Source: Butyriboletus loyo (lineage: Eukaryota; Basidiomycota; Agaricomycetes; Boletales; Boletaceae). Taken from it: a stretch of 27,418 bases of DNA. Below, in pieces: positions 2,926-27,418 of this stretch. The stretch's first letter is position 1; every line of letters starts with the position of its first letter. A model generated the notes under the pieces. It did not search any database. It was not told where the DNA came from and saw only the letters and a list, made by a program, of their open reading frames with translations. The stretch covers positions 1 through 27,418 of the forward strand of contig JBBPSI010000292.1 in the NCBI GenBank assembly GCA_038093515.1, written 5' to 3'. The position numbers and the translations under genes were made by a program.

Positions 2926-3146
2926 GTACCAAAGGTTATCGCTTTTGGTCTCCAATCCAAAGGCATGTTCTTGTAGAATCTGTTGCGACTTTTAATGAAG
3001 AATCATTCCCACAATGTTCCAAAGAACAGGATGATAGACAGGCCATAATTCCGCCTCCTATTCTTCCAACAGATGCTGATGAAAATGGAGATGATGAAGA
3101 TAGTACATCTGACACCCCACCATCAAACCAACAACAGGCAGATGTG
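2926..3146 (+). pseudogene. Copia pol fragment: integrase-RT linker
   Basis: Reads KGYRFWSPIQRHVLVESVAT and then an acidic, serine/proline-rich stretch, typical of the linker between integrase and RT in fungal copia polyproteins. It ends in the ATGTG target site of gypsy-1 (3142-3146) and resumes at 11071 (PPPLGVHFDGTS). Confidence 0.8.
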
Positions 3147-3576
3147 TGTTACAGTAGTGGTTTACTTTTTCTCTCCATTACCATTGGGACTACTATGTTC
3201 ACCTAGCCTTTTGCTAGTTCCCTTTGAACAGTAACAAACTGTTCCAGCTTAGTCATCAGTTCTCGTGCACGGACGTGTTTTCCTTCATACTCTGGAACAT
3301 TCTAGAGTATCTTTTCCTCATTTGTATTTTCACTCTCGCGACTCGATTAGGGAGCAATGGTCTGTGTGCAGACCCCAGTAGTATAAAGACTCTGTCTTTA
3401 CACCCATGTACCTTATCTAGTTCTACGCAGATACCTGCTAGCAATTAGTATCATTCCAGACTCTTAGTGTGAGCACTAAGACATAGTCTGAGACTTCTCC
3501 CAGAACCGTCTCCAGAGTCCTGAGGCTACTCTTGAGTGCCTCCTCACTGTTCTAGTTGTTAGCGCCCAGCATAACA
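3147..3576 (+). repeat. Gypsy-1 5' LTR (family D)
   Basis: 430 bp, TGTTAC...ATAACA. It pairs with the 429-bp LTR at 10637-11065 and is homologous to the LTRs at 13350-13775, 15297-15713 (reverse), 15807-16231 and 23418-23839. It contains the promoter described at 3359-3424. Differences from the 3' LTR are concentrated at CG versus TG/CA positions. Confidence 0.95.
3359..3424 (+). promoter_or_regulatory. Family D LTR promoter and predicted transcript start
   Basis: GGTCTGTGT (3359-3367) begins the inverted repeat GGTCTG-TGTG-CAGACC. TATAAA starts at 3382 after a 14-bp gap. A small hairpin (AAAGAC-TCT-GTCTTT) lies just after the TATA box. ATCTAGTTCT (3415-3424), 33 bp downstream of the TATA box, is complementary to the primer-binding site at 3579-3588, which points to transcription starting at or very near 3415 if the element self-primes as Tf1 does. 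TATA spacing is seen; start-site use is inferred. Confidence 0.65.
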
Positions 3577-3578
3577 AA

Positions 3579-3951: not shown

Positions 3952-4947
3952 ATGTCGGAAAAGAAGAACATCGTCCCCAAGGACTTCACTGGTCTCAACG
4001 AGGATGCCTCCCGATGGCTCCTCGCCATGCGCACCTACTTCGATGCCAACCAGACGTCCTTCCCCGACAACAAATCAAAGATCAACGCTCTTCTTATGAA
4101 GATGAGCAAAGGGAAGGGAAAGACATTCTCCGAAGGATGGATGGGCCTTCTCCTAGACGGACACCCCACAGAATGACAAAAAGAATTCACAATGATCTGC
4201 GAGGACTTTCAAAGGGTCTTCCATCCCTTTGACGTAGGAGAAAGTGCCAGGATCGATCTGGGGAACCTCACCCAGAACAAAGCCAACCGCAAGGACGGCT
4301 ACGACACCTATGTCACGGAGTTCCAGCTCCTCGCTGCCAAGTCAGGAATCTCTGATGAGAAGGCACTCATCGAATGGTTCATTCGTGGTCTCGACCCCCG
4401 CCTCGCCGAATCTGTCCTCTCTTGCGAGAAACCCCCCACCATGCTCGCCAGATGGGCTGAAAAGACCTCCACCTTCCATGCGCAACACAAGCGCATCGAC
4501 GACCTCCGCGCAGGGAAGCGCTACATCCCCACCTTCTCCTCCTCCTCCAAGCCCTCGTCCAACCGAAGGGACCCCAACACCATGGACGTAGATGCCGTCC
4601 GACTTACTCCCGTACAACGTGCGGAGTACATGAAGCAGAACAAATGCTTCATCTGCCACCAAGTCGGCTGCCGTTCCACCAACCATCCCCGCACCCCACA
4701 AAACGGACAAAGCCCCCGAGGACCGCCTCCTCGTCCCCCTCGCAACCCTCAGCGTGCACGCGCCACAATCGTCACACCCCCCGAACCAAAGCCCTCCCCA
4801 CTCGTCGACTACCTGTCCGAGTTGAAGGGTTGAGGCACCCAACAGGAAGATGTCTTGAATGTCCTCAAGGCATGCTTCAATGAAGATGAAGAAAGGCTGC
4901 CCGTTGCAGCAACCAAGGTGGCCGAAGAATGGCCAAAGGATTTTTAG
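3952..4947 (+). pseudogene. Gypsy-1 gag (capsid/nucleocapsid), two in-frame stops
   Basis: 332 codons from ATG 3952 to TAG 4945-4947. The N-terminal two thirds form a Gag capsid-like helical domain (DASRWLLAMRTYF near residue 19; YDTYVTEFQLLAAKSG; LIEWFIRGLDPRLAESV). A basic, serine-rich linker precedes a zinc knuckle at residues 232-245, C-x2-C-x4-C-x4-H (CFICHQVGCRSTNH), in which the usual last H and C are swapped. A proline/arginine-rich region follows, then LVDYLSELKG and an acidic C-terminus ending WPKDF. Stops at 4174 and 4831; the second is CGA in gypsy-2. Gag assembles the particle and packages RNA in this family. Pol overlaps its last codons in the -1 frame. Confidence 0.88.
4938..4947 (+). 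promoter_or_regulatory. Candidate -1 ribosomal frameshift site, gag to pol
   Basis: In the gag frame the sequence is AAG GAT TTT TAG, containing the heptamer G-GAT-TTT directly before the gag stop. Pol is open in the -1 frame across this point. GGAUUUU is a known -1 slippery heptamer in some plant viruses (established knowledge). The identical site is kept in gypsy-2. I did not identify a downstream pseudoknot. Confidence 0.55.
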
Positions 4948-5981: not shown

Positions 5982-6802
5982 TGTTATGCTGATAGCGCAC
6001 AATAACTAGCAGCGAGCACTTGACTAGGGGCTCGAGCCTAATGAGGAAAGTGGCCGACTCGTGTAGATGACGCTATCAGGCTTCTGCTGAGCAAGTGTCT
6101 TCGAGATGTTGAGTGGTGGCGACCAGTCAAGATCGAGTAGAGACTTATCGGCTCAATTTGGCAGATGAAGGGTATATTGCTAGATTACTATGCACTTGAT
6201 AGATGCGTAGAATTAGCTAGAGAAGTCGTACTGGTCTAAGTATGAGTATATATACTGGTAAGTATCGTGCACAGACCAAGCTGTGGGTGGCAGCGAAGGC
6301 AAAGGGTTATGAGTCGCATCGAGTCATAACGGCGAATGAAGAAGTGGCAAAGTGCCGGTAACAAGGGAGCGAAGCTCCGAGCAAGATGGCGACATTGTCA
6401 GCGAATAGGAAGAGCTGAAGGTGAAGTGATGATGTCCTCGAGGCGAGCCCCACAGGGCAAAGGGGATGCGAACAGCAGAGCCCTTGGATACGGGTCTCGA
6501 CGCGAAGGTACTGACACGTTGTAATCTAATCACGTGCTAGTCACGTGATGAACCAAATGTCATTGGATAAAGAATAAGAGGATGCGACAGCTCAGCTGTG
6601 GGTCCGGCCCGATGGGGCGACAAGACAGGGGCTATCTCAGTGTAGCGTCACTGAGACTCGCAGAACGACTGGGAAGTGGATAACGTCCACTAGGCGACTA
6701 AGGAGCAGGCGATGGGCGGCATCGTGAGATGGCAGGGGCGGCGGGAACGTGTGAGCATGGGAAAACAAGTGGCGGGGTACGCTTAGGGGTAAAACTGTAA
6801 CA
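5982..6802 (-). repeat. Solo LTR, family A/B (copy B'), inside gypsy-1 RT
   Basis: 821 bp flanked by a perfect GATAT duplication (5977-5981 and 6803-6807). Removing it rejoins the RT frame at DIRWGY|NN. In the minus orientation it begins TGTTACAG and ends CATAACA. TATATATA lies 14 bp after GGTCTGTGC (reverse of 6269-6277). Non-coding. Confidence 0.93.
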
Positions 6803-9325
6803 GATATAACAATATCCTCATCAAACTGAACAACCGCTAGAAAGCAGTGTTTATCACTCCCCAAGGGTTGTTCGAACCAATGGTGATGTTTTTCAGGCTG
6901 TGTAACTCTCCCGCCACATTCCAGGCATTGATGGACCATATTTTCGGCGACCTCATGGCAGAAGGTTGGCTAATCATCTATATGGACAACCTTTTGATTC
7001 ATTCTGCCACCACTGCGGAACACGAGGCCCATACAATCTGTGTTCTGGAGCGACTCCGAGAACACAAATTGTTCCTCAAATTAGAAAAGTGTTCATTCGA
7101 CGTCAAGGAAGTCGAATACCTTGGGATGATGGTCCGGGAAGGACAGGTCAAAATGGACCCCACAAAGTTGAAAGCGATTCGTGAATGGAACCCCCCCACT
7201 TCCGTAAAAGCTGTCAGATCCTTCATAGGATTCTGCAATTTCTATCACAGGTTCATTCAAGATTTCTCCCATATCGCAAAACCCCTCCATGACCTGACCA
7301 AGAAGAACTCCCTGTGGGCATGGACTCCGGCTTGTGAACAGGTGTTCCAGGCAATCAAACAGTTGTTCCTATGACAACCAGTTCTCTCAATGCCCGATGT
7401 CACGAAGCGGTTTGCTGTCATGACGGACGCGTCCCTTACTGCCACTGGAGCAGTACTCATGCAGAAAGATGTCAATGGCGACTTGTACCCCTGCGCATAC
7501 CTCTCGAAGATGCTATCGCCTGCGGAACGCAACTACGATATCTATGATCGTGAGTTACTCACGGTCATTCACGCGTTAGAAGAATGGTGACACTATCTGC
7601 GAGGTACTGGTCATCAAGTGGAGATTCTCACCGACCATAAGAATCTCACATACTTTCGCCAACCAAACAAGTTGTCTCCCTGGCAAGCCCGCTGGCTAAT
7701 GTTCTTGCAGGATTTCGACCTGCATTTTCACCACATCCCCGGTGCCCAGATGGGCCCTGCAGATGCCCTCTCCCGATGTGACGATGTTGATACTTCTGCC
7801 GACAATCAGGAAGTCACCCTCCTGCCCGATAACCTGTTCGCCCGCAAAATTGATCTCGCTCTTGCGGAAAAGATCGCTGCTTCCTCCCCCAGCGATCCTA
7901 TGATCAAACGTTGCATGCAGGCTCTTTATGAAGACTCTCCCCTTTTTCCCAAGATGAATGCTGGGGATTGGGACTTCGATGGTAGGGAGTTATACTTCCA
8001 CAAGAAGCAGTACATCCCCGAGGCTGCACGTGTCGACCTCATCCGATCCCTGCACAAGAGTCCCACTGGTGGTCACGGTGGCATCTTCCGCACCCAGAAC
8101 CTGGTGCAAAGGGATTATTGGTGGCCTGGAATGGCCAACCTTGTCCGCCACTTCGTCTCGGGTTGCGCCAGTTGCCAGGCGCATAAGGTCAATACTCACC
8201 CCACTGTGCCCCCTCTCACTCCTCTGGCCAGCATGGCCTCTCGTCCTTTCAAACAGGTCTCTGTCGACCTCATCACCAGCCTCCCCTCTTCTTTGGGTTA
8301 TGATTCAGTCATGGTCGTGGTAGACCATGGGCTTAAGAAGGGGGTAATTTATTCCCCTTGAAATAAAGACATTGATGCAGCAGGAGTCGCAAAACTATTT
8401 TTCAAAACTGTCTTCCTTCGGTTCGGCCTTCACTCCCGCTGCATCTCTGACCGAGGCCCTCAATTTGCCTCTGCCTTTGCTAGGGAGCTTGCGAGACTCC
8501 TCAACTACAACCTCGCCCTCTCCTCGGCATACCACCCTCAGACTGATGGTGAAACAGAACGGGTCAACCAAGAACTGGAGACGTATCTCTGGATCTTCTG
8601 TGATGGTCACCCAGAACGTTGGGCCGAGCTACTCCTGATAGCTGAGTTCTCCCACAACTCCATGACGCACTTGTCAACAAACATGACCCCGTTCTCCCTA
8701 ATGGTCGGGTACAAGCCGAGATCGTATCCTCTGATCAGAAAGACGTTCCTCCCTGCCCTTGAATCCAGACTCTCGGAACTCACGGGAGTCCGAACAGAAG
8801 CTTTGGAAGCCCATGAAAAGGCCCGGCGATTAATGAAGGAACGGATCCCATCCAAGTTCCGCCCATGGAAGACAGGCAATAAGGTTTGGTTGGAAGGGCG
8901 CAACCTTCGACTCAGGTACCTGTCGAAGAAGTTGGCCCCTAGACGGGAAGGTCCATTCGAGATTGTGCAAGTCATCTTCCCTGTGGCATACAGGCTCCGA
9001 CTACCGCCGACCTGGAAGATCCATGACATCTTCCACACATCACTGCTGACTCCTTATCATGAAACCACGGAGCATGGTCGGAATTTCACAAACCCTCCTC
9101 CGGAAGAAATAGACGGAGATGAAGAATACGAGATCGATCGGATCTTGTCCCATCGCGGCTCGAAGGGACGCCGTCAGTTCCTTGTGTCCTGGAAAGGATA
9201 CTCCGCAGCAGAGAACACCTGGGAACCAAACGGGAACCTGGTCCATGCGCAAGCCCTGCTCAAGGCTTATAAGCTGCGCCACCCCAAGGATTTTCCCTCC
9301 CCATCTTCTTCATAAGACAACAAAG

Positions 9326-10585
9326 ATGGCCATCCCCCCTGCTGAGAACAATGCTGCTAACAACAACAAAAACCTTCCCCTTCCGCCGCAACCTCCTGTC
9401 CACTCTTCATGTCTCCCCGTCTCCTCTCGCCGCGTCCTCTACGCCGCTGTTCTTGAAAATCCTGTCGCCACATATGCGCTTGAGCAGCGCATGGACTTCA
9501 CTGGGGACTATGTCCTCCGTACACTTGCCTCTCTCTACCGCTCCTATGCCCTCGCCTGCACCGTTCACACCCGTCTGTGCCCAGACAACCAACCACCCGT
9601 CTATGCCGCCGCCCTCGAGTCTTCCCTGATGGAAGCTCGAGGGTATACGTTGGACATTCTCCATGCTGAAGGATTTGGCTACGTCGTCGACCAACTTTTG
9701 CCAGGTATTCTGGCTCCTGTCCTTAGACCTATCCTCATTGCACTTGCTTCTAGGGAGCGACAGTTCTATCTTCACTCCACCGACCGCATCGGCTACCTCC
9801 GCCCCATGGCTCGTGGCCCCAATCCAGTGCCTCGCCCTCCACCAGCAAGATCTCCTTCGCCACTACCTGTACCAGCGCCATCCACCCGGGAGTCTCCCGC
9901 AACCACATTGGTAGCGGATTTGTCTCGCGAAACGACAGGAGAGTCCCTGGAGTCCTTTCGGACCGACGTCGACGAGCCCCAGGTCGCTCGTCGACACTCC
10001 CCCCTACCGCCTTGCACAGTGCGTCGCCAACCTCACCAAGCATTACTCCAGGTCGGGGCCATCCCTGGGTCCATCACCCTCACTGCTGCAGGAAGAAGGA
10101 TTGCCAACCAGGCCGTCCGCTCCGTCACCCCCCAACCACCTACTCAATAAGGAACTCCCGCCATCCAGCTCATCCCTCGTATCGCCTCCCCCCACACAGC
10201 AGCTGGTAGCTCTAATGACTCTTCCTATGGACCCCCGCCTCCCTACCTTGCCCACTGGGGCACTCGTAATTCCCCTATCATCCTTGATGACCGATCCCCT
10301 GATCCCAGCCCAGGCCCTACTCGACCTCGCCTCGTCCGCCCACAGCTCTGCTTTGAGTGCAGTACCGTCGGTCACTTCCGCAGGGATTGTCCAAACTACA
10401 CCTGCCCGTTCTGTCATCAGATCGCCCCAGGTCATATACAGGAGTTTTGTCCAAGGCGTGTCTGCGGTCTATGTGGCGCCATTGGCCATATCGTCACCAA
10501 TTGCACCTTCAGGGACGATGTCTGGGCAGATGTCTCTGCCGATGACGCTTACAACAATGATTTCAACGAGGGGGCCTCTCAGTGA
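9326..10585 (+). pseudogene. Gypsy-1 ORF3: triple zinc-knuckle protein, one internal stop
   Basis: 420 codons from ATG 9326 to TGA 10583-10585, with one premature TAA at 10148 (codon 275). It starts 10 nt after the pol stop, in another frame. Residues ~35-150 form a conserved, probably helical domain (RRVLYAAVLENP...MDFTGDYVLRTLASLYRSYA...LLPGILAPVLRPIL). A proline/serine/arginine-rich linker follows, then PPPPY at 303-307, a SUMO-interaction-like SPIILDD at 316-322, and three zinc knuckles: C342-C345-H350-C355, C360-C363-H370-C375 (x6 spacing) and C380-C383-H388-C393. The tail is acidic. No signal peptide or membrane segment is evident, so it is not envelope-like. Gypsy-2 has the same length with no indels. 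Nucleic-acid binding is likely; its role is unknown to me. Confidence 0.85.
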
Positions 10586-10623
10586 AGGGACAATACAAGT
10601 AGTGGAGTCGGTGTCTCCACCAT

Positions 10624-10636
10624 GGGAAGGGGGTAA
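10624..10636 (+). other. Gypsy-1 polypurine tract
   Basis: GGGAAGGGGGTAA lies directly before the 3' LTR (TGTTACGG at 10637). This is the expected position of the plus-strand primer. Gypsy-2 has GGGAGGGGGGTAA at 23405-23417. Confidence 0.8.
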
Positions 10637-11065
10637 TGTTACGGTAGTGGTTTACTTTTTCTCTCCATTACCGTTGGGACTACTACATTCACCTAGCCTT
10701 TTGCTAGTTCCCTTTGAATGGTAACAAACTGTTCCAGCTTAGTCATCAGTTCTCGCGCACGGACACATTTTCCTTCATACTCTGGAACATTCTAGAGTAT
10801 CTTTTCCTCGTTTGTATTTTCACTCTCGCAACTCAATTAGGGAGCATGGTCTGTGCGCAGACCCCAGTAGTATAAAGACTCTGTCTTTACACCCATGTAC
10901 ATTATCTAGTTCTACGCAGATACCTGCTAGCAATTAGTATCATTCCAGACTCTTAGTGCGAGCACTAAGACATAGTCTGAGAATTCTCCCAGAACCATCT
11001 CCTGAGTCCTGAGGCTACTCTTGAGTGCCTCCTCGCTGTTCTAGTTGTTAGCGCCCAGCGTAACA
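10637..11065 (+). repeat. Gypsy-1 3' LTR (family D)
   Basis: 429 bp, TGTTACGG...GCGTAACA, followed by the ATGTG duplication at 11066-11070. GGTCTGTGC at 10848-10856 and TATAAA at 10871 keep the 14-bp spacing. It keeps CG dinucleotides at several places where the 5' LTR has TG or CA, and the reverse at others. Confidence 0.95.
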
Positions 11066-13349
11066 ATGTGCCACCTCCACTAGGAGTACATTTTGATGGA
11101 ACCAGTATTATTGTTATAATCATAACATCTTATTCGTACATTTTCCATTCGGACTTAGTCGTTTTCACTTTCAAAGGTCACGTGACATAGCGCACGTGAT
11201 CGTGGGAACTTACATGTGATCTCCTGCTGACTAAGCATATGATGTCATGGCCTAGACCAAGCCTAGACTCTATGATGTCACGACACATGTATTTAATCTC
11301 CGTTTACTTCTCTTCTTTTTGATCCCCGCACCTCGTGTGATTAATCACCGTTGCGCTTCTCTTCTTTAGTCTATCCATGTATAGTAATTCCTCACACACA
11401 CAGCATGGTCTGTGCGCGTCCTTGTACAATATAAAAGGGGCTCGTGGTTGCGGCTAGGATTCCCTAGCTTTAACCACTTGTCTTATTCGCTGGCAACAGT
11501 TGAGAGATTAAGATTTGAGCTATCCTCATTACACCTTGCCAGTACCTGTGTAGTACTGCAACAGTAGTGGAACTTCGTGTGACTTGATAACATCGTTGTC
11601 TCGTAACAATTATATGTGAAGGCCTACCACATATTTCCCCCATATTAAATCCTGATGACATGCAACAACCATCTCCTCATCCATCAGTCACACCTTCATC
11701 CTGAGTTATGCCTGAAAATCCACCATCACCTTTATTCCTCAACCCTCCATCTGTATTCTCATCTTCACACCCTGGAGTTAAAAGAGAAACACCAGATACT
11801 GGACATAGATCATCTATAAAGGATCAACACCAACACAAACATCAAATGATACCTCTGTTGGAAACATTTGAAGATCCTGGTCAGATTTGTCTTTCCACTT
11901 TCTTACCTCCAACTAGAGTTTATCATGAACAAATCACAGAGTTTCGAAATCATCCTTATCAACATCATCTGACATGTGATGAACGTGCTCGAGGTCACCA
12001 ATGTGACTTATATGATGAGTTCGACCAGGATTTACAGTCTCATGGTGTTCCAATCCCAACAATCACTAATCCAGATTTCTTACAGATGGGTCAGGATTTT
12101 AATCCCTGTCCTACTTGCAACCATGTTCCATGGATTGTCCCAGATAATGCTTATGGGAATCAACCTCCAATTGAGATAGAACGGGATATACATACATCAA
12201 GGAATGGATCCTATTCAGGAGGAGTTAATTTCTACTCCACAACCAGTTAATCAACCAAGACCCACAGAAGAAGATGACTTAGGACAGATGTACAGTGCTA
12301 AGTGGATTAAATCTCTTCTTGCCACTACCACTGTTGATGGAATTCCACAGTCTCATAAGGCAGTAATGAGGTTACCTCCTGCCAAGAGATCCAAATGGCT
12401 AACTGCTATGGGAGAGGAATACAAGTCATTCCAAGAATGACATGTATGGGATCCAGTAGATCTTCCCAAGGGATGTGAAGTCATTAAAGAGAAATGGATA
12501 AATGTACGAAAAAGTGATGAACAACACAAGTCTCACTGGGTAGCAAAAGGCTTTACCCAAATCTTTGGAATTGATTATGAGAAAACCTTCTCACCAGTTG
12601 CCAGGTTTGAAACCATCAGAATTCTCTTAGCTCTAGCTGCCTTAGAAGATGGGGAAATCAAGACTCTAGATGTCAAGACCACATTCCTCTTTGGAGATCT
12701 TGACAAAGAAATATATATGGAACAACCTGAGGGTTTCACTCAAAAAGGCTCAGAAAGTAAAGTCTATCACCTACAAAAAGCTATTTATGGTCTCAAGCAA
12801 GCAGCCTTTCAATGGAACAAAGCCTTGCACTCATCACTAATCAAACAAGGATTCAACCGTACCTAGTCTGACCCAGGAACTTATATTAAATTCATCAGGA
12901 AAGTCATCATTATTTTAGTTATATACATTGATGATGGTCTTTTTATGGGTAGTGATAAAACACAAGTCCTTGCTCACAAAAAGCACTTTATGAAGACTTG
13001 GGAAAGTCGAGATCTTGGAGAAGCTGAAAGAGTATCTAGGCATGTGGATTTCCAGGGATCACAAAAACCGTACCATGAGGCTGGATCAGTGTGATTATGC
13101 ACAGAAGGTCATAAAACAATTCAAGCTTGAAAATGCAAAATCCACACACACACCTCTTCCTTCTGGTTATAATCCTTCACCATCAACCACCGAAGCATTG
13201 CCATCTTTGCATTCACAATATCAGTCTGTCATCAGATCTCTTCTCTTTATTATGCTTGGATCTAGACCTGATATTGCTCATGCTGTCATTAAGATGTCAC
13301 AATTTTCTTCCAATCTGTCAGAAGAGCATTTGCAAAGAGTGCTCTATAT
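11066..13349 (+). pseudogene. Copia pol: linker and reverse transcriptase, decayed
   Basis: With the LTR at 11112-11608 removed, PPPLGVHFDGTSI joins ICEGLPHISPILNPDDMQQ in frame. The long variable linker (to ~12200) is followed by the copia RT: AKRSKWLTAMGEEYKSF, then WVAKGFTQIFGIDYEKTFSP, AIYGLKQAAFQWNK, and the active site VIYIDDGLF near 12920-12946 (YIDD, both aspartates kept). Defects: stops at 11702, 12438 and 12865, a frameshift near 12204-12240 and a 1-nt insertion near 13010. It ends LQRVLYI at the TATAT target of the next LTR. Confidence 0.88.
11112..11608 (+). repeat. Solo LTR, family C (copy C2)
   Basis: 497 bp with a perfect ATTAT duplication (11107-11111 and 11609-11613). It begins TGTTATAATCATAACA, itself a 6-bp inverted repeat around 4 bp, and ends CTCGTAACA. 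GGTCTGTGC (11407-11415) is 14 bp upstream of TATAAAAGG (11430), which sets the sense strand as plus. A GCTAGG-ATTC-CCTAGC hairpin lies where the transcript should start. No coding content; reverse-oriented relatives are at 2295-2830 and 22854-23356. Confidence 0.92.
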
Positions 13350-14731: not shown

Positions 14732-15296
14732 TGGTGGAAGAAGGGTATTTGGGAGATATCAGTACTTGGTATAATCTCCTTTGGCCTTGAGCACTGCCTG
14801 AACCCTCCTAGGCATGCTTTCAATCAACTTCTGACACTCTGCAACTGGTATCTTGTCCTACTCCACCTGGATTCTCTCCCACAACTCCAGTATTCCCTTG
14901 GGGGGGTGTTCATATTCTGCAAGTCTTCTCTTGAGATAATCCCAGGCATGTTCTATTGGATTAAGATCAGGAGACTGTGCTGGCCATACCATAGTACTAA
15001 ACTCCTGTTCATATAGCCACTCCTTGACCTTCTTGCAGCTGTGCTTGGGGTCATTGTCTTGTTGGAAGATTGTGTCAGGAGAATTGAGACCATAATACTG
15101 AAGGGAATCTTGAATTTCATCCTTCAAAATTTGAAGGTATAGGTCCCCATCCATCCTACCATCAATCTTGGTGGAATACCCAACTCCCTCCCAACTTATA
15201 CAGTCCCACATCATCACAGAACCTCCTCCAAACTTGAGTGTCCTCTCCACCAGGCTATCACTGAGCCTCTCCCCTGGCTTTTTCCACACCCATTTG

Positions 15297-15806: not shown

Positions 15807-16231
15807 TGTTACGGTAGTGGTATACTTTTTCCATCCACTACCACTTGGACTACTTCATTCACCTAGCTTGCTGCTAGTTCCCTTTGAACGGTACCAACCG
15901 TTTTAGCTTAGTCACCATTTCCCGCGCACGGACGCACTTTCCTTCATACTCCAGAATGTTCTAGAGTATTCGTTCCTCATTTGTACTTTCCTTCTCACGA
16001 CCCGATTGGGAACATGGTCTGTGCGCAGACCCCAGTAGTATAAAGACCCAGTCTTTACACCATGTACACCATCTAGTTCTACGCAGTCACCTGCTAGCAA
16101 TTAGTTCTCTTCCAGACTCTTAGTGTGTGCACTAAGACATAGTCTGAGACTTCCCCAGAATCGTCTCCAGAGTCCTGCGGCTACTCCAGAGTGCCACCTC
16201 AGAGTTCTTGTTGTTAGCGCCAAGCATAACA
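15807..16231 (+). repeat. Gypsy-2 5' LTR (family D)
   Basis: 425 bp, TGTTACGG...GCATAACA. GGTCTGTGC at 16016-16024, TATAAA at 16039-16044 (14 bp between), hairpin AAAGAC-CCA-GTCTTT, and ATCTAGTTCT at 16071-16080 as the predicted transcript start. Confidence 0.95.
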
Positions 16232-16233
16232 AA

Positions 16234-16243
16234 AGAACTAGAT
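16234..16243 (+). other. Gypsy-2 primer-binding site, self-priming type
   Basis: AGAACTAGAT, 3 nt inside the LTR boundary, is the exact complement of ATCTAGTTCT at 16071-16080, as in gypsy-1. Confidence 0.65.
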
Positions 16244-16273
16244 CTTCCTCTCGCTTCTGCTTCCCAGCAGTAA

Positions 16274-16612
16274 AGCCGCCCTCCCCTCTCGCCCAACATT
16301 TCCATCCCACAATCCAGACACGTCAGTCGTTCCTTCCGCGTTCCCTCCCACGAACTGGAACCCATTGTTGTCAACAACCCATCGCCGCCACACTCTCCCA
16401 CCCAGCCAGACCCTCAACCCCAGTTTGACCCTCCGCTCCAGTCAGACCCCAAACCCTCTTATCAACCCGAGGACCAGGGTCTAGGGCAGGGATCTGAATC
16501 AGCACCCAGTGACGACAGTGACTGGCTTGACAGAACCCCCCATGTCTCCCGCTCTCCATCCCCACCGTACTATCCCTCTGCAACCTTCCCAGACAACAAC
16601 GACGACAACGAT
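16274..16612 (+). other. AUG-less open frame upstream of gypsy-2 gag
   Basis: Open from the TAA at 16271-16273 to the ATG at 16613 with no in-frame ATG. It encodes a proline/serine-rich acidic stretch with SPSPPYYP near the end, parallel to the gypsy-1 region 3619-3951. Several residues are conserved between the copies (NISIP, HSP, PSYQPEDQG, DWLD). Confidence 0.45.
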
Positions 16613-17595
16613 ATGTCTGACAAAAAGAACATTGTCCCAAAGGACATCTCTGGCTTAAACAAAGACACCTCGCCATGCGCACGTACTTCAACACCAACCA
16701 GGCAGCCTTCCCTGATGACCAATCAAAGGTCAATGCTCTCCTCATGAAAATGAGCGAAGAGAAAGGCAAGACGTTCTCTGAAGGATGGATGGCCCTCCTC
16801 TTAGACGGACACCCCACCAAACAACAAAAAGAGTTCTCTACAGTCTGCGAGGACTTCCACAGGGTTTTCCACCCCTTTGATGTAGGCGAAAGCGCCAGAA
16901 TTGACCTGGGGAACCTCACCCAGAACAAAGCCAACCGCAAGGACGGCTACGACACCTATGTCATGGAATTCCAACTCCTCGCCGCCAAGTCAGGAATCAT
17001 CAATGAGAAGGCGCTCATCGAATGGTTCATTTGCAGTCTCGACCCTCGCCTCGCTGAGTCTGTTCTCTCATGCAAGAAACCCCCTACTACTCTCGCCGGA
17101 TGGGCCGAAAAGACCTCCGCCTTCCACGCGCAGCACAAGCGCATTGATGACCTCTGCGCAGGAAAGCGCTACATCCCCACGTTCTCCTCCTCCTCCAAGC
17201 CCTCATCTAGTTGAAGGGACCCCAATGCTATGGACGTTGACGCAGTCCGACTCACCCCCATACAATGCGCAGAATACATGAAGCAGAACAAGTGCTTTGT
17301 CTGTCACCAGGTTGGCTGCCGCTCAACCAACCATCCTCGTCCCCCACGCAACAGACAGAACTCCCGAGGACCACCTCCTCGTCCCCCTCGCAACCCTCAG
17401 CGCGCATGCACTGCAGTCGTCACACCCCCCGAACCTAAGCCCTCCCCACTTGTCGACTATTTGTCCGAGTTGAAAGGTCGAGGCATGCAACAGGAAGATG
17501 TCTTGAACATCCTCAAGGCATGCTTCAACGAAGATGAAGAAAGACTGCCCGTCGCAGCAACCAAGGTGGCCAAAGCTTGGCCAAAGGATTTTTAG
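16613..17595 (+). pseudogene. Gypsy-2 gag, decayed
   Basis: From ATG 16613 to TAG 17593-17595, matching gypsy-1 gag at 332 codons once a 13-nt deletion near 16665 is allowed for. The deletion shifts the frame just before the MRTYFNTNQ segment. A TGA at 17212 replaces the CGA of gypsy-1. The zinc knuckle CFVCHQVGCRSTNH has the same C-C-C-H order. It ends AWPKDF at the same GGATTTTTAG junction with pol. Confidence 0.88.
17586..17595 (+). promoter_or_regulatory. Candidate -1 frameshift site, gypsy-2
   Basis: GGATTTTTAG, identical to 4938-4947 in gypsy-1, precedes the gag stop; the pol frame is -1 relative to gag. Confidence 0.55.
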
Positions 17596-19361
17596 AAGAG
17601 AGGGAAGTTTCGACGTCTTTGCCTCTCCATGTAATCGCCCCTGTAGTTTTATCAAACCCCAATGCGCAATCTATTCGAGTCCCTGTATTGTTATTCGCGC
17701 ATGAAGGAGGACAAATTGTTGACACATTCGCCCTGGTAGACAGCAGCGCAAGCGGATGCTTCATAGATCGCGATCTAGTGAAGCGAAAGAGACTGCCGAT
17801 GGAACGGCTACCCAAGCCACTTAGTGCCCAGAACGTGGACGGGTCAAACAATCAAGGAGGAGTCATCAGACACAAGGTCACCCTCTCCATCAGAGTTGGA
17901 GAAACCGAGGAGGAACGGAGCTTCCTGGTCCTCAACATTGGAAAAGAAAACATGATCCTGGGACTACCGTGGTTACGAGAAGCCAACCCGGTAATAGATT
18001 GGGCCACCGGCCATATCGATCTTCCAGATCAAATCAAGAAGCCCTGACATGACTCCCCTTGGGCAATTGCTCAATGGTACCTGGTATGCTACCTTGACTT
18101 GGACCCAGACTCCAAGATCGCCAAGCTCTGGAAGAAGCGGGTGGATGCTTCAGCAAGGGACACCTACCCTGTCAGAAAGGCAACCATTGCCACTGAGATC
18201 GCTGCTCAGACCATCAAGGAGAAAGCAGTTCTTCCTACCCCATTCAAGTCCTTCGCAGATGTTTTTGACAAGAAGAACACTGAGGAGCTACCTCCGTCCA
18301 GGTCGTTCAACCACACCATAGACCTCGACAAAGACTTTGTTCCGAAAGTCGCTAAGGTGTACCCTCTGAATCCAAAAGAATCGGAGGTGTGTAAAGCGTT
18401 CGTTGAAGAGCACCTCAAGTCGGGGAAGATTACTCCCTCCAAGTCCCCCCAAGCAGCCCCCTTCTTCTTCGTATCCAAGAAGGATGGCTCGCTATGACCC
18501 TGCCAGGACTACCGATACCTGAACTCCCATACGGTCAAGAACGCCTACCCTCTCCCCCTCATCTCCGATCTTGTTGATCGCCTCAAGGGATCAAAGATTT
18601 TCACCAAGATGGATATCTGCTGGGGATACAACAACGTCCTCATCAAACCGAACGACTGCTGGAAGGCAGCCTTCATCACTCCTCAAGGGCTGTTCGAGCC
18701 CACCGTGATGTTCTTTGGACTTTGTAATTCCCCAGCCATGTTCCAGGCTCTGATGGACCACATCTTCGGCGACCTCATGGCAGAAGGTTGGCTGATCATC
18801 TACATGGACGACCTCTTAATCCATTCCGCCACCACCGCCGAGCACGAAGCACGAACGATCCGTGTCCTAGAACGTCTTCGCGAACACAAATTATTCCTCA
18901 AACTAGAAAAGTGTTCGTTCGATGCTGAAGAGGTAGAGTACCTCGGAATGATGGTACGAGAAGGTCAGGTCAAGATGGACCCCACCAAACTGAAAGCCAT
19001 TCGCGAATGGAATCCCCCGACCTCGGTGAAGGCAGTTAGGTCCTTCATCGGGTTTTGCAATTTCTATCGCAGGTTCATACAGGACTTCTCTCATATCACG
19101 AAGCCGCTGCACGACCTGACTAAGAAGAACTCCCCCTGGGCCTGGACCCCCACCTGCGAAGCCGCATTCCAGGCAATAAAACAGTCGTTCTTGAGGCAGC
19201 CCGTCCTCTCCATGCCCGATGTCACGAAGCCGTTTGCCGTCATGATAGACGCCTCCCTCACTGCTATTGGAGCAGTGCTCATGCAAAAGGATGTCAACGG
19301 CGACCTGCATCCTTGTGCTTACCTGTCAAAGATGCTCTCACCCACGGAGCGCAATTACGAT

Positions 19362-19811
19362 TTTCGGAATTGGTAAAGTCCGAGCAGGCGCACCGAGGGC
19401 AATGAAGGATGCAAGGGTTAAACCTATCAGTGGAAAGACTCACTGATAATACGAGAGTGAGAGTATCGCAAACAGAGTATAAGGAGCAAGGCTCAACTTA
19501 GAGATATTGCAGTAGTGATGATAGAACTGAAAGATCTAGAGAAAAGCGACAAGCCATAAGGGCTGTCTTATATACAGTACATGAGTGTTTGTACTTATGT
19601 TCTGTATAGTACCTTTATAAGGTATAGTATGAAATACATGACGATATGATAGAGATAAGAGATAAGACTAAGCATATCGTCCAATAGCATAATAAGAGCT
19701 ATTTGTAATGTGATAAGCGTGACTAGGTCAAGACAATGATGTCATATAGACCAGTCTAGAAACGTAGTGGCTGTAAGTGAAATACAGAAATAGAACACTA
19801 CCGTTTCAACA
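19362..19811 (-). repeat. Solo copia LTR (family E) inside gypsy-2 RNase H
   Basis: 450 bp with a perfect ACGAT duplication (19357-19361 and 19812-19816). On the minus strand it starts TGTTGAAACGGTAGTG and ends CCAATTCCGAAA. TATATAAG is present around plus position 19570. It matches the 3' LTR of the copia element, showing that this copia family was active after gypsy-2 inserted. Confidence 0.9.
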
Positions 19812-21598
19812 ACGATATCTATGATCAGGAGTTGCTTGCGGTCATTCACACACTAGAAGAATGGCGACACTACCTGTGAGGTACTGGTCACCAAGTGGAG
19901 ATTCTCACTGACCACAAGAATCTCACCTACTTTCGCCAACCCAACAAGCTGTCCTGCCGGCAAGCCTGCTGGCTCATGTTCCTGCAGGATTTTGACCTGC
20001 ACTTCCATCACATTCCCGGAACTCAAATGGGCCCTGCAGATGCCCTATCCTGACAAGATGACATTGACACCTCCGCCGACAACCAGGAGGTCACCCTTCT
20101 CCCTGAAAACCTGTTCGCCAGAAAAATCAATGTCGCACTCACAGAAAAGATCGCCGCCTCGACCCCCAGCGACCCTATGATCAAGCGATGCATGCAGGCT
20201 CTTTATGAAGACTCTCCCCTTTTCCCTAAAATGAACGCTGGGGACTGGGACTTCGATGGAAAAGAGCTGTATTTCCGCAAGAAATGGTATATCCCTGAAG
20301 CTGCATGTGTTGACCTCATCCGGTCTTTGCACGAGAGTCCCGCTGGAGGTCACGGTGGTATATTCCGCACCCAGAACCTGGTGCAAAGGGACTATTGGTG
20401 GCCAGGCATGGCTAACCTAGTCCACCGCTTCATTTCCGGCTGCGCCGTCTGTCAGGCGCACAAGGTTAATACTCATCCCACTGTTCCCCCTCTCACTCCT
20501 TTGGCCAGTGTGGCCTCTCGTCCGTTTGAACAGGTCTCCGTTGACCTCATCACCGGCCTTCCCCCCTCTTTGGGATATGATTCTGTCATGGTCGTGGTAG
20601 ACCATGGGCTTACGAAGGGGGTAATTTATTCCCCTTGCAACAAAGACATCGACGCGGCAGGAGTCACCAAGTTATTTTTCAAAACAGTCTTTCTTCGATT
20701 CGGTCTCCACTCCCAGTGCATCTCCGACCGAGGCCCTCAGTTCGCTTCTGCCTTCGCTAGAGAGCTTGCAAGACTTTTGGACTTCGACCTTGCACTCTCC
20801 TCCGCGTACCACCCTCAAACCGATGGCGAAACCGAACGTGTTAACCATGAACTGGAGACTTACGGATCTTCTGCGATGGTCACCCAGAACGTTGGGCTGA
20901 ACTCCTCCCTATGGCCGAGTTTTCCCACAACTCGATGACCCATTCTTCGACCAACGTAACTCCTTTCTCCCTCATGGTCGGCTACGAACCAAGGTCCTAC
21001 CCTCCAATCGGCAAAATGTTCCTCCCCGCCCTCGAGTCTAGACTCTCGGAGCTCATGGGAGCCCGAACGGAAGCATTGGAAGCCCATGAGAAGGCACGGC
21101 GCTTGATGAAGGAACAGATCTCCTCCAAATTCCGACCATGGAAGGCAGGAGATAAGGTTTGGCTTGAGGGGCGTAACCTGAGACTCAGGTACCTGTTGAA
21201 GAAGCTCGCCCCTAGATGGGAAGGACCGTTTGAAATCGCACAAGTCATCTCCCCTGTGGCGTACAGGCTCCGACTACTGCCGACTTGGAAAATTCACGAC
21301 GTCTTCCATGCTTCCCTCTTATCTCCCTATCGTGAAACGGTGGAGCATGGCCCGAATTTCACAAACCCTCCTCCAGAAGAAATAGATGGAGATGAAGAAT
21401 ACAAAATCGACTGGATCTTGTCTCATCGCGGCTCCAAGAGACGCTGTCAGTTCCTTGTTTCCTGGAAAGGGTACTCTGCAGCGGAGAACACCTGGGAGCC
21501 GAATGGGAACTTGGTCCATGCGCAGGCCTTGCTCAAAGCTTATAAGCTGCGACACCCCAAAGACTTTCCCTCCCCATCTTCGCAGTAAAAACTCGAAA

Positions 21599-23366
21599 AT
21601 GGCTATTCCCCCCACTGAAAACAATGCCTCCAATGACAACGAAAACCTTCCTCTGCCGTCTCAACCCCCCGTCCGTTCCTCCCGCCTTCCCGTGTCCTCC
21701 TGCCGTGTTCTCTATGCTGCCATTCTAGAAAATCCCATCGCTACGTACGCTTTGGAGCAACGTATGGACTTCACCGGGGACTATGTCCTCTGCACCCTTG
21801 CCTCCCTCTACCGCTCTTACGCCCTTGCCCGTACCGTCCATACCCATCTTTGCCCGGACAACCAGCCGCCCGTTTATGCTGCTGCCCTTGAGTCCTCTTT
21901 GATGGAGGCTAGGGGTTACACCCTTGACATCCTCCATGCCGAAGGTTTCGGCTACGTGGTTGACCAACTTCTGCCAGGTATTTTGGCTCCGGTCCTTCGT
22001 CCCATCCTTATCGCCCTCGCTCCTAGGGAGTGACAATTCTATCTCCATTCCGCCGACCGTATCGGCTACCTCTGTCCCATGGCTCGTGGCCCCAATCGAG
22101 TGCCTCGTCCTCCCCCGGCAAGATCTCCATTACCAGTACCTGTACCAGCGCCACCCACCCGGGAGTCTCCTGCAACCACGTTGGTAGCAGACTCGTCTTG
22201 TGAGACGACTGGAGAGTCTCTGGAGTCCTTTCAGACTGACGTCGATGAGCCCCAGGTCGCTTGTCGACACTCCCCTCTCCCGCCTCGTACTGTGCATCGC
22301 CAACCTTGCCAGGCGCTCCTCCAGGTCGAAGTCATCCCCGGCTCAGTTACCCTCACTGCCGCTGGACGAAGAATTGCCAACAGAGCCGTCTGCTCCGTCA
22401 CCCCCCAACCATCCACTCGACGAGGAACCCCAGCCATCCAACTCATCCCTCGTGCCACGACCCCCGCCGCCGCAGCTGGTAGCTCTAATGACTCTTTCTA
22501 CGGCCCCCCACCTCCCTACCTCGCTGGTTGGGGCACTCGTAATTCCCCTATCATCATTGATGACCGATCCCCTGGTCCCAGCCCAGGCCCTGCTCAACCT
22601 CGCCTCGTCCGCCCGCAGCTCTGCTTTGAATGCGGGACTGTTGGCCACTTCTGCAGAGAATGTCCCAATTACACCTGCCCATTCTGTCACCAGGTCGCCC
22701 CTGGTCATATACAGGAGTTTTGTCCAGAGCGCGTCTGCGGCTTATGTGGTGCCATTGGCCATATTGTCGCCAACTGCACGTTCCGGGACGACGTCTGGGC
22801 AGACTTCGATGGTGACGACGCTTACAATAATGACTTCAACGAGGGAGCATCTCTGTTACGAGACAACAATGTTATCAAGTCACACGGGGTTCCGCAACTG
22901 TTGCAGCTATACACAGTAACTGGCAAAGTGTAATGAGGATAGCTTAAGTCTTAATCTCTCAACTGTTGCCAGCGAATAAGACAAGTGGTTAAAGCTAGGG
23001 AATCCTAGTCTAACCACAAGCCCTTTTATATTATACAAAGATGCGCACAGACCATGCTGTGCGTGTGAGGAATTACTATACATGGCTAGACTAAGAAGAG
23101 AAGCGCAACGGTGATTAACCACACGAGGCGCGGGGATCAAAAAGAAGAGAAGTAAACGGAGATTAAATACATGTGTCGTGACGTCATAGAGTCTAGGCCT
23201 GGTCTAGGCCATGACATCATATGCTTAGTCAGCAAGAGATCACATGTAAGTTCCCACGATCATGTGCGCTATGTCACGTGACCTTTGAAAGTGAAAACAA
23301 CTAAGTCCGAGTTGAAAGTGTACGAAGTGTACGAATAAAATGTTATGATTATAACAATCTCAATGA
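21599..23366 (+). pseudogene. Gypsy-2 ORF3: triple zinc-knuckle protein, one stop and one LTR insertion
   Basis: ATG 21599 is 10 nt after the pol TAA, as in gypsy-1. After removing the LTR (508 bp with its duplication) it is 1260 nt, identical in length to gypsy-1 ORF3, ending GASQ-TGA at 23364-23366. A premature TGA at 22031 is CGA in gypsy-1. Motifs: GPPPPYLAGW, SPIIIDDRS, and knuckles CFECGTVGHFCREC, CPFCHQVAPGHIQEFC and CGLCGAIGHIVANC. The block PPVYAAALESS...LRPILIAL is identical in protein to gypsy-1 despite 32 nucleotide differences. Function unknown; RNA binding or chaperoning is likely from the knuckles. Confidence 0.85.
22854..23356 (-). repeat. Solo LTR, family C (copy C3), in gypsy-2 ORF3
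   Basis: 503 bp with a perfect ATCTC duplication (22849-22853 and 23357-23361). Minus-strand sense: TGTTATAATCATAACA start, CTCGTAACA end, GGTCTGTGC (reverse of 23045-23053) 14 bp before TATAAAAG. It splits ORF3 four codons from its end. Closest relative here is 11112-11608. Confidence 0.93.
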
Positions 23367-23404
23367 AGGGAGTTTTCAAGTAGTGGAGTCGGAGTCTCCA
23401 CCAT

Positions 23405-23417
23405 GGGAGGGGGGTAA
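23405..23417 (+). other. Gypsy-2 polypurine tract
   Basis: GGGAGGGGGGTAA directly precedes the 3' LTR, the standard plus-strand priming position. Confidence 0.8.
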
Positions 23418-23839
23418 TGTTATGGTAGTGGTATACTTTTTCCATCCACTACCACTTGGATTGCTACATTCACCTAGCTTGCTGCTAGTTCCCTTTGAAT
23501 GGTACCAACTATTTTAGCTTAGTCATCATCTCTCGCGCATGGACGCACTTTCCTTCATACTCTGGAACGTTCTAGAGTATCTTTTCCTCATTTGTACTTT
23601 TGCTCTCGCGACCTGATTAGGGGACACGGTCTGTGTGCAGACCTCAGTAGTATAAAGACCCAGTCTTTATAGCCATGTACACCATCTAGTTCTATGCAGT
23701 CACCTGCTAGCAATTAGTTCTCTTCCAGACTCTTAGTGTGTGCACTAAGACATAGTCTGAGACTTCTCCAGAATTGTCTCCAGAGTCCTGCGGCTACTCC
23801 AGAGTGCCGCCTCAGAGTTCTTGTTGTTAGCGCGTAACA
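23418..23839 (+). repeat. Gypsy-2 3' LTR (family D)
   Basis: 422 bp, TGTTATGG...GCGTAACA, followed by AGTAT. GGTCTGTGT at 23628-23636 and TATAAA at 23651, 14 bp apart. A few bases are missing near its end (TTAGCGCGTAACA versus TTAGCGCCAAGCATAACA in the 5' LTR). Confidence 0.95.
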
Positions 23840-25003: not shown

Positions 25004-27418
25004 TTATAATCTATTACAGCATCATCATGGTCTGCTCAATGCAAAAGCACATCTGCTCTGCCATTGGTAGATCCTGGTTTGTACACGTAAAGATAATTAA
25101 ACTCTTGAAGGAGCATGTGCCATCAGGCTTGTTGTCCAGACAATGTTTGCAGCTTCTTCCAGTATTCAAGGTTCTTGTGATCTGTCCAGAGCTTAAAACC
25201 TTCTCTCCCAATTAAATAGTGGTGCCATTCTTCTAAGGCATGGATAATGGCTAATAGTTCTTTATTGTAGATTGAGTAATTCTGCTCCACAGGATCAAAA
25301 GAGTGTGAAAGGAAAGCACAGGGTCACCATAGATCATCCGATCCTTTTATGGAAAGAACAGCTCCAACTGCTATATCCAAAGTGTCCATTTCTACCCTCA
25401 CCTCCTTGTTGTGATCTGGGTAGGCTAAAAGTGGTGCTGTCATAACCATCTTCTTCAGCATATCAAACACCAATTGTTTTCCTTTACCCCATTTGAAAGG
25501 AGTATCCTTCTTTGTCAAATTATTGGGGGGGCAAGCTATCTCCAAAAAGCTCTCCATAAACCTTCTGTAGTAGTTGCATAAGCTGTTACAGTTTTACCCC
25601 TAAGCGTACCCCGCCACTCGTTTTCCCACGCTCACGCATACCCGCCGCCCCCGCCGTCTTGCGATGCCGCCCATCGCCCGCTCCCTAGTCACCTAGTGGA
25701 CGTTATCCACTTCCCCAGTCGTTCTGCAAGTCTCAGTGTCGCTACACTGAGATAGCCCCTGTCTTGTCACCCTGTTGGGCCGGACCCACAGCTGAGCTGT
25801 CGCATCCTTCATTCTTTGACCAATGACATTTGTTACATCACGTGACTAGCACATGATTAGATTACGATGTGTCAGTACCTTCGCGTCGAGACCCGTATCC
25901 AAGGGCTCCGCCGTTCGCGTCCCCTTTGCCCTGTGGGCTGTACCTCATGGACATCGTCACTTCGCCTTCAGCACTTCTCATTCGCTGACGATGTCGCCAT
26001 CTTACTCGGAGCTTCACTCCCTCATTACCAGCACTTTGCCGCTCCATCATTCACCGTTATGACTCGCGCGACTCATAACCCTTTGCCCTCGCTGCCACGC
26101 ACAGCTCGGTCTGTGCACCATATCTATTTAGTATATATACCAGCGTACTTAGCATAGTACGGCTTCCCTAGCTAATTCTACGCATCTACCAAGTGCCTAG
26201 CAATCTAGCTTATACCCCATCTGCCGATAGAGCCGATAAGCTTCAGCTCGATCTCGTCTGGTCGCCACCATACGACATCTCGCCGACACTTGCTCTGCAG
26301 AAGCCCGATAGTGTCGTCTACGCGAGTCAGCCATCTTCCCGATTAGGCTCGAGCCCCTATTCAAGTGCTCACTGCTAGTTGTTTCGCACTCCAGCGTAAC
26401 ATAATCCAAGGAATGCTTGAACTTGTTTAAGATGCATGGGAGTGGGCCAGTCACAGATGGCATCTGTTTTCTCGGTCTGCATCTCAAAACCATCCTTGGA
26501 AACTATCATACCAAGAAAGTCTACTCTATCTGAAGAAAAGACACATTTTTCTGGTTTTACAAATAAATTATTGTCCTGAAGGTGTTAGAGAACTTCTTTT
26601 ATGATATCCTTGTATTCCTTATTAGTTCACCCTTTCATAATTATCATAACATTGTTGATGTAAATAATGACAATGGCATACATGTTGTTAAATATATTGT
26701 TCATCATGTTTTGGAAAGTAGGAGGGGAATTAGTAAGCCCAAAGTACATAATGGTAGGTTCATAAGCCCTGATAGGCATTACAAATGCAGTTTTCCATTC
26801 ATCTCCTGCTTTGATACAAATATTGTTAAAACCCCATTGAAGATCTAACACAGTAAAGATTTTGGTGCCTTTAAGCCTATCAATCAACTGCAGTATAAGG
26901 GGTAATGGATAACCAATTTTGATGGTTCCATCATTTAAATAATGATAGTCCATAACCAGTCGCTTCATGCCAGTCTTTTTCAGAATAAAGAACACTGGAG
27001 CCATCTGAGGTGACTTCAATGAACTTATGTAACCCTTTTTGAGTTCTTTATCAACAAAGCCTCTAATCTGGTCCTGTTCCTCATCGGACATTGGAATAAC
27101 CTGACCAATGCTAATGGACAACAACTGGTAATACTGGACAAAGAAATTGTGTCCACAATAACTTTACAATAGGGGGAACAATGGTTGAAAGAAATCTTTT
27201 TGAAGCACCAATCAATATCTGGATTGTGGCATGCAAACCAATCATAACCAATAATCATTTGATGGGAACCCAAGAGGGAAATGTAAGCCTCAATGGCTTC
27301 ATAATGTCCATCAATTTCCATAAAAAAGGAAGCTTTATGTGTAATATGACCAATAGCTCCTTTAGAGCCATCCACATTAATAACTTCCATAGAATGTGGT
27401 AAAGGAATAAGGTCAATT
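25004..27418 (-). pseudogene. Gypsy-3 pol (protease-RT-RNase H), partial and decayed
   Basis: Read right to left: post-protease region (HQMIIGYDWFACHNPDIDW), RT (IRGFVDKELKKGYI, SPQMAPVFFILKKTG, FTVLDLQWGFNN), a dead active site YINN in place of YxDD (near 26660), FLGMIVSKDGFEMQTEKTDA, then across the solo LTR FLGL|CNYYRRFMESF, RNase H (VEMDTLDIAVGAVLS, LLAIIHALEEW, TDHKNLEYW) ending near DDAVID at 25007. In-frame stops include TGA after SDDLW, TGA after MKG, TAA in EVL*HL and TGA in QQA*WH. No integrase or LTR is in the window; it continues past the right edge. It is not closely related to gypsy-1/2. Confidence 0.9.
25584..26401 (+). repeat. Solo LTR, family A/B (copy A), in gypsy-3
   Basis: 818 bp, TGTTACAG...GCGTAACA, flanked by TAAGC (25579-25583) and TAATC (26402-26406), a 5-bp duplication with one mismatch. 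On the gypsy-3 strand, removing it gives CTT GGA TTA TGC AAC TAC, the RT/RNase H frame. GGTCTGTGC (26108-26116) is 15 bp before TATATATA (26132), within GCACAG-CTCGGT-CTGTGC. The best-preserved member of this LTR family here. Confidence 0.92.

Follow-up and report, generated by a model that had tools for sequence, protein, structure and literature searches.

The stretch of DNA analysed here (the window) is a 27,418-nucleotide contig of the basidiomycete Butyriboletus loyo (contig JBBPSI010000292.1, positions 1 to 27,418 of the forward strand, assembly GCA_038093515.1). It contains two copies of a chromovirus of the gypsy type, a retrotransposon bounded by long terminal repeats (LTRs). Element 1 spans 3147 (start of the 5' LTR) to 11066 (end of the 3' LTR) and element 2 spans 15807 to 23839; damage and nested insertions are present in each. 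In each, an open reading frame (ORF) of 419 codons plus stop, here called ORF3, lies on the forward strand between pol and the polypurine tract and ends about 40-50 nt short of the 3' LTR. In element 1 it occupies 9326-10585, its ATG being 10 nt behind the pol stop. In element 2 it runs from 21599 to 22853, where a solo LTR (22854-23356, no strand assigned) has been inserted near its end, with the 5-bp duplication ATCTC on both sides and with related copies; the frame ends behind this insert at 23362-23366 with the stop TGA (23364-23366). ORF3 is under strong purifying selection, and we propose that it probably encodes an accessory nucleic-acid-binding protein of this chromovirus family.

The two window copies of ORF3 align without gaps over the first 1254 nt with 221 differences, of which 147 are at third, 52 at first and 22 at second codon positions. 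The Nei-Gojobori estimates are 0.075 for dN and 0.706 for dS, a ratio of 0.106. A block of 51 codons (9592-9744 in element 1, 21865-22017 in element 2) holds 32 differences, 26 at third and 6 at first positions, and the encoded proteins are identical. An earlier reading of the window from its letters alone (the sequence-only reading) had reported the frame in both elements without indels, and this block with 32 differences, all silent. Both observations hold, the second to the exact count, but that description left out the three zinc knuckles presented below and an in-frame stop in each copy, TAA at 10148-10150 in element 1 and TGA at 22031-22033 in element 2. As each window copy has such a stop, the case for an intact gene rests on the other copies in the genome.

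The genome searched for further copies comprises 30.3 Mb in 420 contigs, of which the window is one. A DNA search with ORF3 gave at least 40 matches, and for a 28-nt motif within ORF3 173 occurrences were counted at up to three mismatches, versus 0 for the reversed control. In the protein search, 85 of the best 100 of 406 candidates had no stop; the remaining 15 places had one to three stops each, almost all TGA, as counted by eye from the table. The pol-end motif CCATCTTCNCAGTAA is present in 159 exact copies and is followed 4-14 nt behind by ATG(G/T) in 159/159, the positions themselves being those of about the first 100 among the matches listed for both patterns. Chromoviruses usually end after pol, and at all these exact motifs ORF3 lies behind it. 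Among the best 150 of 388 candidates from a search with the last 70 pol residues, several dozen lie in frames that stay open over about 1200 codons. The linkage to the pol end and the intact copies show that ORF3 is a constant component of this chromovirus family, which has a high copy number and many intact members. One diverged copy (L038) shares 59-75% identity with other ORF3 copies over about 92 residues, which indicates that the ORF3 family is old in this lineage. It lies in broken pieces at L038:3176-3716 on the reverse strand, adjoining an intact copy.

For comparison across the genome 71 distinct copies were kept, leaving out L001 (the window itself), L006 (frameshift in ORF3) and duplicates. 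Selection was estimated on one tree of the 59 copies with a usable pol end, those with a frameshifted pol being excluded. The MGK codon model yields an omega of 0.104 over ORF3, against 0.062 over the final 200 codons of pol, and fixing omega at 1 for ORF3 (kappa 4.643) changes lnL from -16170 to -17857, a cost of 1687 units. The constraint is unevenly spread (numbering of copy L004, whose pol contains foreign sequence): omega is 0.069 for residues 1-30, 0.027 for the helical part, 0.353 for the first linker, 0.086 for the middle part, 0.466 for the second linker and 0.129 for the knuckles and tail, the higher linker values coming partly from low synonymous change in the linkers. For pairs with pS of 0.05-0.15 the pN/pS ratio is 0.068 (35 pairs); it is 0.154 for the two closest pairs and 0.106, 0.164 and 0.180 in more distant bins. 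The copies in these tests are related to each other and are the best-scoring ones, a choice that favours intact copies and so counts against our reading. But neither kinship nor the choice of best scores can make amino-acid changes ten times too few while leaving the linkers free. Purifying selection had been proposed in the sequence-only reading, and the ratios for the window pair and for the 59 copies are far below 1; the selection is strong and follows a domain-and-linker pattern. As a conserved sense frame between pol and the 3' LTR that is under purifying selection, ORF3 has the properties of an accessory ORF. The stop in each window copy and the stops in 15 of the best 100 copies could be taken to mean that ORF3 is a passenger, either a captured host gene or a frame open by chance, of no use to the element. 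This is contradicted by the selection tests, that is, by the omega of the whole frame, the ratio in the closer pairs and the free linkers beside fixed zinc ligands, as well as by the invariable linkage to the pol end, and we find it hardly credible.

The ORF3 protein has about 404-426 residues and consists of a helical N-terminal part, proline-rich linkers and three C-terminal zinc knuckles, the helices being predicted at low confidence. The N-terminal part (residues 31-165, 9416-9820 on the forward strand), predicted to be all-helical, is the most constrained segment of the protein, and 77 of its 136 alignment columns are invariant in the 71 copies. The knuckles (10349-10504, forward strand) match zf-CCHC (PF00098, 6.9e-08) and have the spacings CX2CX4HX4C, CX2CX6HX4C and CX2CX4HX4C, in this order. 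Ten of the 12 zinc ligands are present in 71/71 copies and the other two in 70/71. ORF3 thus possesses the CCHC zinc knuckles of the nucleocapsid type. Among solved structures, an 83-residue piece with the knuckles is matched best by the cellular proteins TUT7 (2.5e-08) and AIR2 (2.7e-06), and more weakly by retroviral nucleocapsids (2ihx, 2.6e-04). In copy L012 the net charge is -7 for the knuckle end and +11 for the middle part. The sequence-only reading had also stated that no membrane segment is present. This is not secure, as residues 128-146 of copy L012 form a hydrophobic stretch of 19 residues averaging 1.82 on the Kyte-Doolittle scale. Together with the position of ORF3, which is that of env, this stretch might point to an env-like or otherwise membrane-acting protein. 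However, the stretch contains three prolines and one arginine and falls within the helical part, where conservation is highest; it is the only stretch of its kind, and a C-terminal knuckle array is not a feature of env. At E up to 1, Pfam matched none of the ORF3 pieces to an env. A role of this kind appears very improbable.

The Gag of these elements has a single cysteine motif, C-X2-C-X4-C-X4-H, read as CF[IV]CHQVGCRSTNH in 7/7 copies. Pfam called no zf-CCHC knuckle in the one motif-bearing gag piece scanned; the knuckle array is accordingly found only in ORF3. ORF3 has the order of domains of a Gag (helical part, linker, zinc knuckles), and nucleocapsid chains are among the weaker matches of its knuckles. 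It could therefore be considered as a diverged second Gag, with a capsid-like helical domain and nucleocapsid knuckles encoded by a separate gene. Against this, neither Retrotrans_gag nor Ty3_capsid matched ORF3 at Pfam E up to 1, whereas the gag piece itself matches Retrotrans_gag; the hhalign comparison of the ORF3 and gag profiles gave a probability of 0.2, in what is a weak test with two sequences on the gag side; and the best matches of the knuckles are cellular. A duplicated gag, which the sequence-only reading had named as a finding that would overturn its view, is thus not what these comparisons reveal, and we judge a second Gag to be unlikely. Beside this, in L079-L083 the gag frame can be followed upstream through the whole leader, almost to the LTR, with neither a stop nor an AUG. 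The leader is most variable at third codon positions (33/126, versus 17 and 11), as if a non-AUG start extended gag.

How ORF3 is expressed was considered from the junction with pol in 68 copies, L038, L040 and L047, in which no in-frame ATG was found, being left out. The pol stop is TAA in 67/68 of them. The gap between this stop and the ORF3 ATG measures 6-12 nt (6 nt in 1 copy, 8 in 11, 9 in 34, 10 in 14, 11 in 7 and 12 in 1), which corresponds to remainders 0, 1 and 2 modulo 3 in 36, 14 and 18 copies. Frameshifting or readthrough from pol is ruled out as a shared route, given that the gap sets ORF3 in any of the three frames relative to pol; fusion to pol not being shared, ORF3 probably starts on its own. 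The -3 position of its ATG is a purine in 68/68 copies (A in 65, G in 3). Independent initiation a few nucleotides behind the pol stop would come about either by restart of the ribosome after termination or from a spliced mRNA. Restart behind a stop has been described for fungal viruses (victorivirus and hypovirus), where an overlapping AUGA or UAAUG is combined with an upstream RNA structure, according to the available part of PMC6631646. Several observations weigh against one or the other route here. The stop and start codons of pol and ORF3 do not overlap, unlike those of the viral junctions, but are 6-12 nt apart; the last 50 codons of pol gave no sign of a stable RNA structure (z -1.17); and no conserved GTRHGT donor was found in the part of the element scanned for it, the leader and gag of five copies. 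In the four LTRs GTRHGT is present only in element 2.

The end of pol is pyrimidine-rich and its last codon is CAG in 65/68 copies and never CAA, while over the last 200 codons of pol glutamine is encoded 223 times by CAG and 55 times by CAA; in 43/68 copies pol ends with TTTCCCTCCCCATCTTCGCAG. This pyrimidine-rich CAG could possibly be a splice acceptor. It would suit a factor like Rev or CERV, translated from a spliced mRNA, that would attach to the unspliced RNA of the element inside the nucleus and export it, as CERV of the Cer1 element does in Caenorhabditis elegans (PMC10309623, in part). The position between pol and the 3' LTR, a cysteine-rich domain of RNA-binding type and the lack of env likeness are also in line with such a factor. 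Apart from the missing shared donor, what speaks against it is the reported domain itself: in the available part of PMC10309623, CERV is described with a proposed C4-type cysteine finger and no CCHC array, whereas ORF3 has CCHC knuckles, and the Gag of Cer1 has three CCHC fingers, against none in the Gag of the ORF3 elements. This comparison is one of descriptions. ORF3 as an export factor of this type is possible, although we would not expect it.

ORF3 also carries signals at the nucleotide level. Synonymous diversity drops at alignment codons 160-200, 210-250 and 310-360, and a block near codons 205-245 is nearly invariant, its differences being mostly C-to-T or G-to-A. This block holds a 10-bp inverted repeat with an 8-nt loop (9968-9995, forward strand). 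The alignment fold of the conserved stretch, i.e. 9923-10042 of the window with the matching part of 60 other sequences, suggests an RNA structure (z -5.18 with 25 shuffles; z -3.98 with 0/150 column shuffles as good). The single-strand fold gives z -1.65, the covariation of the hairpin is no better than in shuffles (98.4% paired versus 98.2%, with 50/500 shuffles as high), and Rfam has no match on 9001-11200 at E up to 1. In addition, the +1 frame over the second half of ORF3 (alignment codons 202-428, in part at 10101-10724 and 22200-22919 of the window) is open in 64/71 copies, versus 3-4% of synonymous shuffles; this figure is not a probability, as the copies are related and about 5-6 sites carry most of the signal. 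By the same measure the N-terminal half of ORF3 and pol are not unusual. It is conceivable, but quite doubtful, that nucleocapsid work has moved from Gag to ORF3, that the hairpin stretch of about 90 nt (9943-10032) is the packaging or regulatory site recognised by the ORF3 protein and that the +1 frame could encode a fourth product.

The remaining features agree with the label of chromovirus given in the sequence-only reading. The 5' LTR of element 1 (3147-3577, forward strand) is 94.9% identical to its 3' LTR (10637-11066, forward strand, from the LTR pair alignment) over 431 nt, and the flanks read directly beside the LTRs show the target-site duplication ATGTG at 3142-3146 and 11067-11071. 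Between them lie gag (3952-4833, forward strand, from the first ATG to the end of the frame, with one in-frame stop; Retrotrans_gag PF03732 in 4192-4833), the C-terminal end of pol (8662-9315, forward strand, from the ORF list, stop TAA at 9313-9315) and the polypurine tract (10624-10633, forward strand, read directly in the sequence). In element 2 the 5' LTR (15807-16231, forward strand, ends taken from the sequence) is 91.9% identical to the 3' LTR (23418-23839, forward strand, LTR pair alignment) over 420 nt, and the C-terminal end of pol (20911-21588, forward strand) contains a Tf2-1-like SH3 domain (PF24626, 2.6e-18) and a chromodomain (PF00385, 6e-12). On pieces of element 2 Pfam recognised RVT_1, RT_RNaseH, Integrase_H2C2, rve and Chromo. 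The family thus has LTRs with a target-site duplication, the order reverse transcriptase, RNase H and integrase, and a chromodomain at the integrase end. The fungal origin deduced from the letters also fits, the genome having 19 Zn_clus and 42 hydrophobin matches versus 0 in 14 control genomes; so large a number of hydrophobins would suit a fungus of the mushroom type. The window holds further features. The pol of element 1 contains an insertion at 5994-6806 with inverted copies at 1586-2297 and 25583-26390. A DDE_3 transposase piece lies at 14858-15289 (reverse strand, 4.4e-12), and at 26627-27390 (reverse strand, RVT_1 2.3e-13) a frame encodes the reverse transcriptase of a further LTR element, whose end is beyond the part read. 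Two frames at 137-568 and 537-722 have the Crinkler N-terminal domain (PF20147, 1.2e-06 and 8.3e-07), and the frame at 537-722 continues into a retrotransposon piece (SH3_retrovirus, 1.7e-10).

Relatives of ORF3 were sought among 5.8 billion proteins. The whole protein had none at E <= 0.001 (7993 candidates scored), whereas the control, 253 residues of the integrase of element 2, matched 1201 of 2229 candidates in the same set. This set reported no copies of the element's own ORF3 and is hence without the ORF3 of this genome. Viral and prokaryote contigs gave no relatives either, few fungal sequences being expected there. The usual description of a fungal chromovirus has no genes besides gag and pol (PMC2864245 and PMC3248453, in part). 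The sequence-only reading did not know ORF3 as a described family. We likewise found no relative outside this genome and no description, within a literature available in part, but an 'additional ORF with unknown function' is drawn in a 2010 survey, in the structure figure of mostly fungal chromoviruses and one spikemoss element (PMC2864245). Those chromodomain Ty3/gypsy elements with an extra ORF resemble ours, by text description only, and the available text gives neither sequence, position nor element name, so that identity with ORF3 cannot be told. A clade of fungal chromoviruses with additional genes is mentioned in the available part of PMC2774666, the reference cited there being also cited for dUTPase. 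The ORF3s of bdelloid rotifers (PMC5408684) and the additional ORFs of plants (PMC7264820) are also accessory, located behind pol and not necessarily env; among those described in the available parts of these papers are enzymes, env-like or unassigned proteins, and none of the zinc-knuckle type. The Boty-like elements of Botrytis, fungal elements of the gypsy type, have an additional gene too, brtn, but this gene is antisense, whereas ORF3 is sense and directly behind pol (PMC8365987 and PMC7264820, in part). In the literature searched, which did not extend to most subscription papers, Repbase and GyDB, we found no fungal chromovirus described with an ORF of the zinc-knuckle type behind pol. 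Accessory third ORFs are thus a known kind, and what seems to be new here, to judge from the sequence, is the helical part without known relative combined with a knuckle array. For the array itself the likeness is with AIR2 (2lli) and TUT7 (8oef); AIR2 aligns over all three knuckles and has, like ORF3, a longer middle loop in its second knuckle. Outside the knuckles the two proteins have no relation to ORF3, and as these are short repetitive domains the likeness may be convergent.

On balance we favour, with some reserve, the view that ORF3 is genuinely the third gene of the chromovirus family and encodes an accessory nucleic-acid-binding protein that aids Gag with the element RNA. The function that we infer would be as follows. 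The knuckles would bind element RNA (or cDNA), the helical part would bind itself, Gag or a host factor, and ORF3 would work beside Gag in the packaging, chaperoning or export of RNA. ORF3 is proposed as an RNA-binding partner of Gag because Gag has one motif that is not CCHC and no knuckle array. The array may have a part in nucleocapsid work, in the export of RNA or in copy-number control. Some results do not sit well with an accessory RNA-binding protein. Its knuckle end is acidic, whereas a typical nucleocapsid is basic. Pfam has no match to the helical part at E up to 1, and residues 28-168 had no relative at E <= 1 in the protein set searched above (384 candidates scored). AlphaFold2, run on two window rows, gave helices only at a mean pLDDT of 43.9, which is no evidence of a fold.

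If ORF3 is such a gene, its family would be a case in which to study the acquisition of accessory genes by LTR retrotransposons of hosts other than animals and plants. It lets one ask how a fungus translates a gene that lies behind pol, and whether the nucleocapsid work of an element can be separated from its Gag.
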